From an uncultured Gammaproteobacteria bacterium (GTDB taxonomy: Bacteria; Pseudomonadota; Gammaproteobacteria; Arenicellales; JAANXG01), in NCBI GenBank assembly GCA_947259395.1, contig CAMYMN010000017.1, forward strand, positions 21,419-79,185: a stretch of DNA of 57,767 nt. The letters are read 5' to 3'. Positions 2,750-10,378 of the stretch are shown one piece after another (positions within the stretch are counted from its first letter, which is position 1; each line of letters opens with the position of its first letter). The position numbers and the translations under genes are program-made. The notes under the pieces were generated by a model. The model did not search any database and was not told where the DNA came from. It saw only the letters and a list, made by a program, of their open reading frames with translations.

Positions 2750-3137
2750 TGCTCATCATCTCGTCATAGGGTTGAGGGTCCCGGTGGTGGCCTGCGTCAG
2801 CCAGGCGTTGGAGGTAGTCCGCCCAGTACTGCTGACGGTTTACTCCTAGCTCATACAGGGTCTGCCACGAAAATATTCCGGTGTCATGTCCGTCGTCGAA
2901 GCGCAGCATTACGGCGTAGGTACCCACCGGTTCTACGGCAACAATGTTTACCTTTTCTTTGCCGATTTGAAGCACTTCCTGCCCCGGACCGTGCCCACGT
3001 ACTTCCGCAGATGGCGAATAGACACGCAAGTACTCGCATGGCAACTCAAATTTGCTGCCGTCATCGAACACGGTCTCCAGAATCCGTGATTGCTGGTGGA
3101 GCGTAATGTCGGTTGGTGTCGCTTTTTTGTCAGGCAT
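2742..3137 (-). CDS. DUF971 / gamma-butyrobetaine-hydroxylase-like N-terminal domain protein
   Basis: 131 aa protein of the DUF971 family, a small beta-rich domain also found at the N-terminus of gamma-butyrobetaine hydroxylases. Typical elements are the opening around [12 protein letters not shown], the segment [15 protein letters not shown], and [20 protein letters not shown]. The biochemical role is not established; in gammaproteobacteria the gene often lies near ubiE. Here it overlaps ubiE by 8 bp and follows hemB by 39 bp, consistent with a quinone/haem supply operon. Confidence 0.85.
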
Positions 3138-3176
3138 CGGCTACGTCAGTTTCGGTGCTGTAGTTTCTTGCGTCGC

Positions 3177-4226
<1,050 letters not shown>

Positions 4227-4849: not shown

Positions 4850-6121
4850 ATGCCAAAGTCCAGGCCAAAAAATGCGTTTTATGCCCAGTCCGGCGGTGTT
4901 ACCGCAGTTATTAACGCCAGCGCCTCCGGTGTGATTGAGACCGCGCGTAAACACAAGAACAAGATCGGCAAGGTCTACGCTGGGCGTAACGGCATTATCG
5001 GCGCCCTCACGGAAGATCTCATTGATACCAGCCGGGAGACACCGCGTGCGATCGCGGCGTTACGCCATACACCCTCCGGTGCGTTCGGTTCCTGCCGCTA
5101 CAAACTAAAGAGCCTGGAGGAAAACAGGCGTGAGTACCAACGGTTGATAGAAGTGTTCGCGGCCCACGATATCGGATATTTTTTCTATAACGGCGGAGGT
5201 GACTCTGCGGATACCTGTTTGAAGGTGTCGCAACTGTCGGAGACCATGGGGTATCCGATCCAGGCCATTCATGTGCCAAAGACGGTGGATAACGACCTGC
5301 CAATCACGGATAACTGCCCCGGGTTCGGCTCAGTGGCCAAGTACATCGCGGTCTCGACACGCGAAGCCAGCTTTGATGTTGCGAGCATGGCGAAGACCTC
5401 CACCAAGGTGTTCATAATCGAAGTGATGGGCCGTCATGCGGGCTGGATCGCCGCAGCCGGCGGCCTCGCGTCCAGTGCAGACACCGAGATCCCGATATTG
5501 ATCTTGTTTCCGGAAGTGAGGTTCGACCGAAAAAAATTCATGCAAAAGGTGGATCAGCTGGTAAAAAAACACGGCTACGTTTCGGTGGTTGTGTCCGAGG
5601 GCGTAAAGGGGCCTGATGATAAGTTTTTGTCCGATCAAGGTTTGAAGGATGCCTTCGGTCATGCGCAACTCGGCGGCGTGGCACCGGTGGTGGCGAACAT
5701 GGTCAAACAGGACTTGGATCTCAAATATCACTGGGCGGTAGCCGATTACTTGCAGCGCGCAGCGCGTCATATTGCGTCCAAGACCGATGTTGACCAGGCC
5801 TATGCAGTGGGGCGACAAGCAGTACGTATGGCTCTAAAGGGCGACAATGCGGTGATGCCGGCGATCAAACGGGTATCCAACCAGCCCTACAAATGGAAAA
5901 TTGAAAAGGCGCCGTTGCACAAAGTCGCCAATGTCGAAAAAATGATGCCGAAAAATTTCATAACCCGGGATGGTTTCGGCATCACCGACAAATGTCGTGA
6001 ATATCTGACACCGCTCATCAAGGGCGAAGATTACCCCCCTTATAAAAACGGTATGCCGCAATACATCCGACTCAAGAACGCGCCGGTAAAAAAGAAGCTG
6101 AAAAGCCGGTTCACGCCCTAA
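4850..6121 (+). CDS. Pyrophosphate-dependent 6-phosphofructokinase (PPi-PFK)
   Basis: 423 aa PfkA-superfamily enzyme that interconverts fructose 6-phosphate and fructose 1,6-bisphosphate. The donor-site segment is GGGDS (residues 115-119), with Asp at the position where ATP enzymes have Gly (GGDGS), and the catalytic loop is PKTVDND (143-149), with Lys before Thr. Both are hallmarks of the diphosphate-using clade. GRHAGWIAA and the long C-terminal extension also fit long PPi-type enzymes of methanotrophs. An AGAGGGG Shine-Dalgarno precedes the ATG. The gene lies close to hppA, which fits a metabolism that reuses PPi. PPi specificity is inferred from motifs. Confidence 0.9.
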   Translation: MPKSRPKNAFYAQSGGVTAVINASASGVIETARKHKNKIGKVYAGRNGIIGALTEDLIDTSRETPRAIAALRHTPSGAFGSCRYKLKSLEENRREYQRLIEVFAAHDIGYFFYNGGGDSADTCLKVSQLSETMGYPIQAIHVPKTVDNDLPITDNCPGFGSVAKYIAVSTREASFDVASMAKTSTKVFIIEVMGRHAGWIAAAGGLASSADTEIPILILFPEVRFDRKKFMQKVDQLVKKHGYVSVVVSEGVKGPDDKFLSDQGLKDAFGHAQLGGVAPVVANMVKQDLDLKYHWAVADYLQRAARHIASKTDVDQAYAVGRQAVRMALKGDNAVMPAIKRVSNQPYKWKIEKAPLHKVANVEKMMPKNFITRDGFGITDKCREYLTPLIKGEDYPPYKNGMPQYIRLKNAPVKKKLKSRFTP

Positions 6122-6497: not shown

Positions 6498-6953
6498 CTA
6501 AGTCACGGTTTTCTTGGCCCGTAGTAGACGCATCGCCAGCGCCAGCAAGAAGATGATGATCGCGAGAATGCCCAACTCGGCGAGCGCCGCCTGAAACGCA
6601 GGATCTTGGATGTTCGCGTGGCCGGCACTCTCGGCGGTGATGATGAGCATGCGCCGAATTGAGGCAATTACGCCAACGATAAGAAACGGCTCGACTTCTA
6701 GCAACTGCGTGCGCGTGATCCTGCCTACGGTGTAAATGATTTCGGCCACCATCAGCACCAGCAGTACGCGGTCCAAGAGATGGACCATGGCACGCACGTA
6801 GTCGCCTTCGAATATCTTGGAACCCATCTCGATTACCGCGGTAAGGAGCAAGCCGCCGGCCGCCAGCACCAGGATGAAGCCGGCGGTGAGATAGATGTAG
6901 TGTTCGGCGCGTTCGAGAATGCGGACGTCTGCAGGCGAGTCTTGGTTAGTCAT
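6498..6953 (-). CDS. PsiE-like phosphate-starvation-inducible membrane protein
   Basis: 151 aa integral membrane protein with four hydrophobic segments (about residues 18-43, 60-78, 90-106 and 123-142). The pattern LLDRVLLVLMVAEIIYTV followed by VEPFLIVGVIASIRRMLII matches the PsiE family. PsiE responds to phosphate starvation in E. coli, but its molecular function is unknown. It sits on the same strand as hppA, with 142 bp between hppA's stop and its start, in a neighbourhood concerned with phosphate and pyrophosphate. Confidence 0.8.
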   Translation of the reverse strand: MTNQDSPADVRILERAEHYIYLTAGFILVLAAGGLLLTAVIEMGSKIFEGDYVRAMVHLLDRVLLVLMVAEIIYTVGRITRTQLLEVEPFLIVGVIASIRRMLIITAESAGHANIQDPAFQAALAELGILAIIIFLLALAMRLLRAKKTVT

Positions 6954-7095: not shown

Positions 7096-9105
7096 TCAAC
7101 CCAATAGCGGTGCAATTACCAAGCTCACGATCGCCATAACGTTGATCAGGATGTTCATCGACGGTCCCGAGGTATCCTTGAACGGGTCACCGACGGTATC
7201 ACCGACCACCGTCGCCTTGTGGGTATCGGAGCCCTTGCCGCCGAGATTTCCGCGCTCCACATACTTTTTGGCGTTATCCCAGGCGCCACCCGCATTGGCC
7301 ATGGTCAGAGCCAGCAATACGCAGCCAAGCAATGCGCCCCCGAGCATGCCACCCAGGGACTCGGGCCCGAGGACGAAACCCACCACCACCGGGGCTGCGA
7401 CCGCCAACACGCCGGGCGGCACCATGCGCTTGAGCGCGGCGTCGGTGGCGATCTCGATACACCGCTCATTGTCCGGTTGCGCCTCACCTTCCAGCAACCC
7501 GGGGATCTCCTTGAATTGACGGCGAATCTCTTTGATCATGTCAAACGCCGCGTCGCCCACTGCTTGCATGGTCATACTACCGACCAGAAACGGAAAGATG
7601 CCGCCGATGAACATCCCGGCGAGCACCCAGGGATTATTGATTTGCAGGCTGAAATCCGCGATCTGGTGGGACACCACCTCGATGTAGGCGGTAATGATGG
7701 CCAGCGCCGCCAGCGCCGCGGCACCGATGGCAAACCCCTTGCCGATTGCGGCGGTGGTATTGCCGAGTTCGTCCAGCGAATCGGTAATCTTACGCGTGTC
7801 CTCTCCCAGGCCGGCCATCTCAGCGATACCGCCGGCATTGTCTGCCACCGGCCCATAGGCATCGATCGCCATGGTGATACCGACGGTGGCGAGCATGCCC
7901 ACCGCAGCGATGCCCACTCCGTAAAGTCCCACCAGCTGACTCGAGATCAGAATAATGGCGCTGAGCGACAACAGCGGCACGACCACCGATTGCATGCCGG
8001 TGGCGATGCCAGTAATCATCACTGTCGCCGGGCCGGTTTCTCCGCCCTCGGCAATCTTCCGAACCGGATTACCGGCGGTGTAGTACTCGGTCACCAGACC
8101 GATAATGATGCCACCGACGGCGCCCACCAGTACTGACACCCACACCAGCATGCTGGCATCGGAAATAGCGATCACCAAAAACGCGACGACGATAAACAAC
8201 ACCGATGCACCCATGGTACCGATACGCAACGCGACTTCCGGTGACTTACTTGAATATCGCCATACCAGATAGATCCCGCCGATGGAGCACAATATCCCTA
8301 CCGAGGCCATCATCAATGGCAAGAACATCAGCGTCGACTGCGGTCCGACGGCCTCTATTTCCGCTGTCCCCATGGTCGAGGCAATGGCGATGGTGGCGAT
8401 CATGGCGCCGCAGTAGGACTCGAAGATGTCCGATCCCATACCGGCCACGTCACCCACGTTGTCTCCGACGTTGTCGGCAATAACGCCGGGGTTGCGCGGG
8501 TCGTCCTCAGGGATCCCTGCTTCCACCTTGCCGACGAGATCCGCGCCGACATCGGCGCTCTTGGTAAAAATACCGCCGCCAACGCGGGAGAACAACGCCA
8601 CCGAGGATGCACCCATGCCAAAACCGTGAATCACGTGGGCGGTGTGTGGGTCGCCGCCAAAAAACAGGTACAGCAGCCCGAGCCCCAACAGACCCATGGC
8701 CGCCACCGTGAGCCCCATGATGGAGCCCCCGAAGAACGCCACCGTTAATGCCTGCGGGGCACCCTGGTCATGGGCGGCGGTGGTGGTACGCACATTCGCT
8801 TGGGTAGCGGTGTACATACCGATGTAACCGGCGCTCCCCGAGCACAGCGCCCCAACGATGAATGCGAACGCGGTGCGCCAACCCAGCGGTGAGAAAAGAA
8901 TGAGCAAAATGACGACCGCCGAGAAAATCGACAAGATCTTGTATTCACGGCGCATGAACACCATCGCACCGTTGTGAATGGCATCACCGATCTCAACGAC
9001 TTTACCGGTGCCCGGGGCATACTCCAGGACCATTTGAAAAATCTTGTATGCTGCGAACAAGCCGCCTATGCCAAGAAGAGTCGGAATCAATGCTTCGAAC
9101 GACAT
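7096..9105 (-). CDS. hppA: HppA, membrane-bound ion-translocating pyrophosphatase
   Basis: 669 aa polytopic inner-membrane enzyme that couples hydrolysis of PPi to outward pumping of H+ or Na+. The substrate-binding signature [22 protein letters not shown] is followed by NVGDNVGD, and a second acidic cluster near the C-terminus reads [19 protein letters not shown]. The segment [10 protein letters not shown] (about residues 446-455) has Ala where K+-independent enzymes have Lys, so this should be a K+-dependent pump. Whether it moves H+ or Na+ cannot be decided from what I see. AAGGGGA precedes the ATG. It could use, or in reverse regenerate, the PPi handled by the nearby PPi-PFK. Confidence 0.96.
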
Positions 9106-9286: not shown

Positions 9287-9454
9287 ATGAGCCTCGAGCA
9301 AGTACAACCGGGCACGTCCGTCCCGGAAGAAAAAGACGTCGAGGCCGGAAAATGGTTAAAGATCCGCGGCTGGGTCGGCCCCGAAGACGCGAAAAATGAA
9401 ATCTTTACTTCTGTGGATCGCTATCAAAATGCGGTCACAAAACCGGCATTTTAA
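9287..9454 (+). pseudogene. ppa: Internally deleted remnant of soluble inorganic pyrophosphatase (ppa)
   Basis: 55-codon open frame whose first ~14 residues (MSLEQVQPGTSVPE) match the N-terminus of family I soluble pyrophosphatase. The remainder (from about EKDVEAGKWLKIRGW to the end) matches that enzyme's extreme C-terminus, which in E. coli reads KDLEKGKWVKVEGW. The roughly 120 residues between, with all the metal and PPi-binding Asp residues, are missing. The product cannot be a pyrophosphatase. It lies divergently from hppA, 181 bp away. The family match is from memory of Ppa sequences; an assembly deletion is the main alternative. Confidence 0.75.
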
Positions 9455-9475: not shown

Positions 9476-10378
9476 CTACTCCTTTTTCTTCGCCCTTGGG
9501 TGTGCACGGTCATAGACCTTCGCCAGGTGCTGAAAATCCAAATGCGTATACACCTGTGTCGTGCGGATATTGGCATGGCCCAGCAGTTCCTGGACCGCCC
9601 TAAGTTCACCGCTGGATTCCAGCAAGTGAGTCGCAAAACTGTGGCGCAGCACATGGGGATGCACCGACACACCTAAACCCTGGCGTTTCCCCCAGTGCTT
9701 GATTCGCTGTTGCACCCCACGCGGCGTCATGCGCCCTCCTTTCCTGGTTACAAACAACGCCGCTTCGTCCTCACTAGCCATGTGCGCGCGTTGCGGCAAC
9801 CACTCCGCGATGGCCCGCATCGCTAGACGCCCCACGGGAACTTCTCGTGTCTTACCACCTTTGCCGCGAACACGGACCAAGGCCTGCTTACGGTCTAGCT
9901 GTGGCAGATCGAGGCCGATCAACTCCGACAAGCGCAGTCCCGATGAATAGAACAACTCCATGATTGCCCGGTCCCGCAACGCCAGCGGTTCTTTAGCCTG
10001 CACCGCGACCAGCAAAAACACCTGGTCCACCGTCAACGCCGCGGGTAAACGCCTTTCTGATTTCGGGGCACGTATACCGGTGAAGGGATTATTGTTGGTT
10101 TCGCGTTCACGGATAAGGTAGCGATAGAAACTACGTACCGCCGACAGAGCACGTTGGATACTACGTCCCGATAAACCGGATTTATGTAAGTGGGTAATGA
10201 AGGAACGGGCCCCGTGCACATCGAGTTGCCGCCAAACGTCGACTGTTTCGCGATTACAATACTCCACCAGACCTTGAAGATCCCGGGCGTAAGCGGATTG
10301 TGTATGTTCAGACATGCGCCGTTCGACGCGCAGATACCCCAAAAAATCGTCTAGCTGTTTCTGGGATTCCGGCGACAC
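9476..10378 (-). CDS. xerC: XerC, tyrosine site-specific recombinase
   Basis: 300 aa recombinase that with XerD resolves chromosome dimers at dif. It has the N-terminal SAM-like core-binding domain (about 5-95) and the catalytic domain with Arg in SSGLRLSEL, Lys in VRGKGGKTREVP, HxxR in HVLRHSFATH, His in LLGHANI and the nucleophile Tyr in TTQVYTHLD. Length and the dapF-DUF484-xerC order identify housekeeping XerC rather than a phage integrase. The start is six bases past the DUF484 stop. Confidence 0.95.
   Translation of the reverse strand: MSPESQKQLDDFLGYLRVERRMSEHTQSAYARDLQGLVEYCNRETVDVWRQLDVHGARSFITHLHKSGLSGRSIQRALSAVRSFYRYLIRERETNNNPFTGIRAPKSERRLPAALTVDQVFLLVAVQAKEPLALRDRAIMELFYSSGLRLSELIGLDLPQLDRKQALVRVRGKGGKTREVPVGRLAMRAIAEWLPQRAHMASEDEAALFVTRKGGRMTPRGVQQRIKHWGKRQGLGVSVHPHVLRHSFATHLLESSGELRAVQELLGHANIRTTQVYTHLDFQHLAKVYDRAHPRAKKKE

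Follow-up and report, generated by a model that had tools for sequence, protein, structure and literature searches.

What is the short open frame that lies between hppA and xerC in the window (the whole stretch of 57,767 nucleotides analysed here, from the genome of an uncultured gammaproteobacterium, G000), and does its condition say anything about how this organism handles pyrophosphate (PPi)? The frame comprises 55 codons (9287-9454, forward strand, ATG to TAA). An earlier note on this DNA had read it as the two joined ends of ppa, the gene of a family I soluble pyrophosphatase (PPase), and had seen in it a lineage that stopped hydrolysing PPi with a soluble enzyme and came to depend on the membrane enzyme HppA and a PPi-dependent phosphofructokinase (PPi-PFK).

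The frame translates as MSLEQVQPGTSVPE-E-KDVEAGKWLKIRGWVGPEDAKNEIFTSVDRYQNAVTKPAF, with 14 N-terminal codons starting at the original ATG (9287..9328), a single junction codon (9329-9331), and 40 C-terminal codons (9332-9451) followed by the stop that ends at 9454. In a profile search, residues 15-48 matched positions 142-175/176 of the NCBIfam inorganic diphosphatase model PRK01250.1 (E 2.8e-6), while the match to Pfam PF00719 was not significant (E 0.11, 12.7 bits, cut-off 23.5). Intact Ppa proteins from relatives in the same order (18 found and 17 used, L015 being omitted, its open frame having run on) aligned with the C-terminal part in tblastn, with a best E of 1.3e-11 and 49-58% identity among the 14 matches listed. 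Over residues 16-47, 19 of 32 positions are equal to the consensus of these 17 proteins and the maximum reached in 100,000 shuffles was 11, which rules out a chance resemblance; residues 14-55 additionally share 62% identity with the end of a ppa pseudogene in the family member G006. The N-terminal piece, at 14 codons, is not long enough for a profile search, and its assignment rests on DNA of the same genus: by eye, a similar start region is seen in G002, G004 and G005, continuing in the first and last of these into recognisable Ppa sequence. The earlier reading of the frame as the start of Ppa joined to its C-terminus is in this way borne out.

Compared with canonical bacterial family I Ppa (PRK01250.1, PF00719), the likeness covers the N-terminal 14 and C-terminal 40 residues, but about 125 central residues are gone, the catalytic Asp among them, and the frame reaches 27.3 bits against PRK01250.1, below the family cut-off of 200. 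Neither the DxDPxD nor the DxxxxDxK stretch, which we take to hold the catalytic Asp residues of family I PPases, occurs within the 55 residues. Loss of these residues and the in-frame character of the deletion had both been proposed before and are upheld, whereas the proposed size of about 120 codons needs correction to nearer 125. The frame is homologous to an intact gene found in the same slot of relatives and lacks its essential parts, as a pseudogene does. Its product, devoid of the catalytic part, would be unable to hydrolyse PPi, and we infer that the frame is without function, even though it is still open, keeps its ATG and may be translated. Region 9287-9454 is very probably the dead remnant of a canonical family I ppa, left by one in-frame deletion, whose loss was tolerated through a second family I enzyme and HppA.

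As had also been described, the remnant lies back to back with hppA (7096..9105, reverse strand), whose start lies 181 bp off on the other strand and which encodes a membrane ion-translocating pyrophosphatase of 669 aa that matches PF03030 (844.6 bits), NF001961 (1091.8 bits, cut-off 926) and TIGR01104 (765, cut-off 651.9). The PPi-PFK gene (4850..6121, forward strand; 423 aa; NF010675, 661.4 bits, cut-off 273) is found 3.2 kb from the remnant and about 1 kb from hppA, and a gene of the phosphate-starvation-inducible PsiE family stands between PPi-PFK and hppA (6498..6953, reverse strand; PF06146, 36.1 bits, cut-off 23.9). The right flank of the slot is formed by a xerC-type tyrosine recombinase gene (9476..10378, reverse strand), named from reading its sequence, which has matches in 21 of the 21 genomes searched and was used as anchor of the slot in relatives.

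A search of 60 genomes, G000 included, returned full-length canonical ppa in 18 relatives. Because in 13 of these 18 the gene is divergent to hppA and within 1 kb of it, the divergent ppa-hppA pair is probably the ancestral arrangement of the slot, and the remnant agrees in position with the canonical ppa of order relatives. In G000, a canonical family I ppa would formerly have stood divergent beside hppA. The family of G000, f1, counts 13 genomes, and in 12 of them the hppA-xerC slot could be read together with its two flanks; in the remaining one, G009, hppA was not detected. Recognisable ppa remains are present in five of these slots (G000, G002, G004, G005 and G006) and were not found in the other seven (G001, G003, G007, G008, G010, G011 and G012), that of G001 holding a run of N in which a remnant could be hidden. 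The same G001 slot displays an inverted repeat (L081, 896-1148) with 35-nt arms, 86% complementary and separated by 183 nt that include the N run, which resembles a small non-autonomous mobile element.

The lesions differ from one relative to another. G002 and G005 keep at least about 60 N-terminal ppa codons without a recognisable C-terminal part and, by eye, have lost one base at an identical position, which changes the frame, G005 having an extra frame change ahead of it. In G004, about 20 N-terminal codons give way to unrelated DNA, as read by eye; its tblastn match is weak (E 0.1), and the call as a remnant rests on DNA likeness around the ATG. G006 has a ppa of almost full length that lacks a start codon where one would be expected and, by eye, changes frame in mid-gene. 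Outside the family, the 97% complete G054 carries a canonical ppa that is almost complete in length but broken up among several frames, divergent to the adjacent hppA (G054:C17:219500-224500, L103, about 3041-3542), and no other PF00719 match was found in that genome. These remnants are like that of G000 in being of the same gene, beside hppA and apparently non-functional, but they bear frame changes, loss of the start, 3' truncation or substitution by unrelated DNA, whereas G000 has an in-frame internal deletion. The comparison of relatives that the earlier note had proposed shows ppa damaged at this slot in several of them, whereas a match covering both ppa ends was found in G000 only among the 60 genomes, there resting on one MAG (86.6% complete, 3.85% contamination, 222 contigs). 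That a full-length ppa exists here in the organism and the deletion arose in assembly, collapse or binning is conceivable for a single MAG in so many contigs; nonetheless, the flanks are continuous with those of genus mates and the 11 further slots read in the family show either a broken ppa or none that can be recognised, so that we regard such an artefact as very improbable. A true deletion is retained: a single in-frame internal event of about 125 codons would have joined the first 14 to the last 40 codons, and decay of the same locus by different lesions in relatives would fit relaxed selection on a redundant gene.

Substitutions in the retained parts bear on when ppa ceased to matter. Between the remnants of G002 and G005, 32 codons show 6, 6 and 5 differences at codon positions 1, 2 and 3, an evenness that, as expected, gives no sign of selection. 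Between G000 and G006, the 40 C-terminal codons show 10, 5 and 32 differences, a pair for which dS was not computable, and against four intact relatives the C-terminus of G000 shows 8, 5 and 19, 10, 9 and 21, 14, 8 and 19, and 10, 11 and 22 differences over 32 codons. Since these C-terminal differences fall mostly at third positions, selection acted on the ppa of G000 through most of its past, and the deletion is probably late. An earlier inactivating change, common to relatives, may have lain in the middle that is now deleted; the forks of the XerC tree are weak.

The open frame, its original ATG and the well conserved C-terminal motif could also be seen as traits of a micro-protein that has been retained, for example by binding another Ppa subunit. 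Such a product has little to recommend it, considering that (i) the joined form occurs in no other of the 60 genomes, (ii) about one third of random deletions keep the frame, and (iii) there is no close relative with a joined frame on which selection could be measured; we deem it highly unlikely and keep to a dead remnant.

Whether the loss of ppa left the organism without a soluble PPase is answered by its own genome. The profile search for an intact gene elsewhere, which the earlier note had advised, returned one PF00719 gene on another contig (C7:17334-17834, E 2e-42), with a 206-residue protein that scores 301 bits against NF001886 (the PRK00642.1 equivalog, cut-off 247) and so belongs to the PRK00642-type family I PPases. 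The stretches KYELDK, VDR, GDQDPLD, ADDKIIAV and TYK of this protein presumably form part of the active site. They align with like stretches of the solved structures 6we5 and 5ls0. From its sequence, the gene is predicted to encode an intact enzyme, the second family I PPase of G000 and a member of another subfamily. The idea that G000 has lost soluble PPase is rejected, and the proposed end of soluble PPi hydrolysis in this lineage is not supported; the earlier note had itself named an intact gene elsewhere as refuting it. By gene content, HppA does not stand alone as PPase in G000 either, given the intact PF00719 gene on C7; a match to the family II domain DHHA2 was not found. Loss of ppa would have been tolerable because two other PPases remain, the PRK00642-type enzyme and HppA, and redundancy as the cause of that loss is the most economical reading for G000.

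This second Ppa is open in seven of the 13 genomes of the family (G000, G001, G003, G004, G006, G007 and G010), broken over several frames in G011 (L099, G011:C107, 858-1452), and without a real match in the other five searched (G002, G005, G008, G009 and G012). Pairwise comparison of the C7 gene gave a dN of 0.057 and a dS of 0.812 with G001, and 0.074 and 0.996 with G007, dS being not computable for three of the five pairs (G003, G004 and G010); the gene is constrained. Two copies were noted in the single MAG of G003 (C77 and C48, one cut by a contig end), which could reflect duplication or bin mixing.

As for the membership of C7 in this genome, most best DNA matches over 19 kb of the contig, 14 candidates being scored per genome, are to the same genus (G001 94%, G002 93%, G004 92%, G005 87%, etc.), and the contig resembles the DNA of this genus, although it could derive from another species of the genus present in the bin. 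Synteny could not tie the second Ppa to G000, its neighbourhood not being conserved in relatives; pairwise identities and a tree of this protein are compatible with membership without deciding it. An acyl-CoA ligase-like protein encoded on C7 (L100, G000:C7 13520-15148) shows 87% identity in G017 against 60-63% in genus mates, and is closest to family f6, that of G017, rather than to its own; horizontal transfer, loss in the genus and bin mixing are all possible.

An alternative is that ppa was shed in a turn towards saving PPi, its sole users then being HppA and PPi-PFK, and a soluble hydrolase having become a waste. Their proximity in G000, both over family cut-offs, and the sister genomes G002 and G005, with ppa remnants and no second Ppa detected, speak for such a shift, and a precedent is available in Clostridium thermocellum, which according to PMC7657619 has PPi-PFK and a proton-pumping PPase and no soluble PPase. 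Against it, G000 keeps its intact and constrained second enzyme, and of the 60 genomes 53 give a match to HppA and 56 to PPi-PFK, the majority of genomes whose canonical ppa is intact being included. HppA is matched in 26 of the 29 genomes with a PF00719 match (E <= 0.001; in three of these, G005, G011 and G054, the match is to a remnant, divergent or broken sequence) and in 27 of the 31 without. Near-universal in the genomes searched, HppA and PPi-PFK are not markers of ppa loss, and the 60-genome counts rule out their presence as its predictor; judged by gene content, their presence would permit ppa loss without predicting it. A shift to PPi conservation is consequently an improbable explanation for G000, for which a redundant, decayed ppa is preferred.

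The notion of HppA as sole PPase may nonetheless fit some relatives. No family II PPase (DHHA2) match was obtained in any of the 60 genomes. The 27 in which HppA was matched but PF00719 was not (E <= 0.001) include the single-contig G035 and G040; completeness reaches 90% or more in 23 of the 27 and is lower in G026, G052, G055 and G058, and the HppA match is partial or split in G016, G026 and G052. When the PF00719 limit was raised to E 10 for eight genomes, G008, G012, G035, G022 and G020 still gave no match, G040 gave one at 0.4, G002 gave its remnant (0.0015) and one at 0.8 at a contig edge, and G005 gave its remnant and a divergent gene only. With families I and II searched, an intact soluble PPase was not found in G002, G005 or G054, the genomes that this notion may suit; G002 and G005, which jointly inherited a damaged ppa and in which the second Ppa is undetected, are the cleanest cases. 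Divergent PF00719-like frames occur in G003:C34 (L097) and G005:C86 (L098), with DGDLLD or DSDLLD and YDDKLV; as replacement PPases they were set aside for absence of the KYE stretch, and they perhaps encode a PPase-fold protein with another function. In G012 (G012:C167:6575-8459) the hppA match falls into two pieces (profile 3-60 and 123-645), and the gene may be damaged or misassembled.

For the taxonomic order to which G000 belongs, one of uncultured Gammaproteobacteria, a scenario as likely to be right as wrong has the ppa of an ancestral divergent ppa-hppA pair lost repeatedly and independently, leaving HppA as the sole recognisable PPase, coupled to PPi-PFK, in some lineages (G002/G005, G054, G035 and G040), with G000 showing one such loss at an early stage, still buffered by the second soluble enzyme. 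The locus offers a visible decay series that begins with the intact ppa-hppA pair, passes through forms with changed frames or truncation, and ends where no ppa can be recognised. The remnant of G000 is real and, by itself, ordinary; its worth is that of one step in this series, the more interesting pattern being in the relatives. PMC9959109 reports that the membrane PPase of R. rubrum replaces the essential soluble enzyme in engineered E. coli and that a soluble PPase accompanies the membrane one in every species known to have the latter. Two anaerobes without soluble PPase are reported in PMC7657619, and several relatives of G000 look like further exceptions to the membrane-plus-soluble rule. 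The series makes it testable whether an ion-pumping PPase can replace the soluble enzyme in nature, as the R. rubrum enzyme does in the engineered E. coli (PMC9959109). Among the titles and abstract openings of the papers listed by our searches, no report was found of ppa pseudogenes or ppa loss beside hppA.

With respect to described systems, G000 shares PPi-PFK and an HppA-type PPase with C. thermocellum, where, according to PMC7657619, the soluble enzyme is absent, whereas a second one is intact here. PPi-PFK adjoining hppA is described, in excerpts of PMC8269255 and PMC6908572, for sulfur-oxidising chemosynthetic symbionts, and G000 has the two genes as neighbours as well; those excerpts make no mention of soluble ppa loss, and the likeness is in gene neighbourhood alone. 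Across the 51 genomes tabulated here, hppA and PPi-PFK lie less than 5 kb apart on the same contig in 21, further apart on the same contig in four and on different contigs in 26; in some of these last, such as G029 and G034 with their long contigs, the two genes are truly apart.
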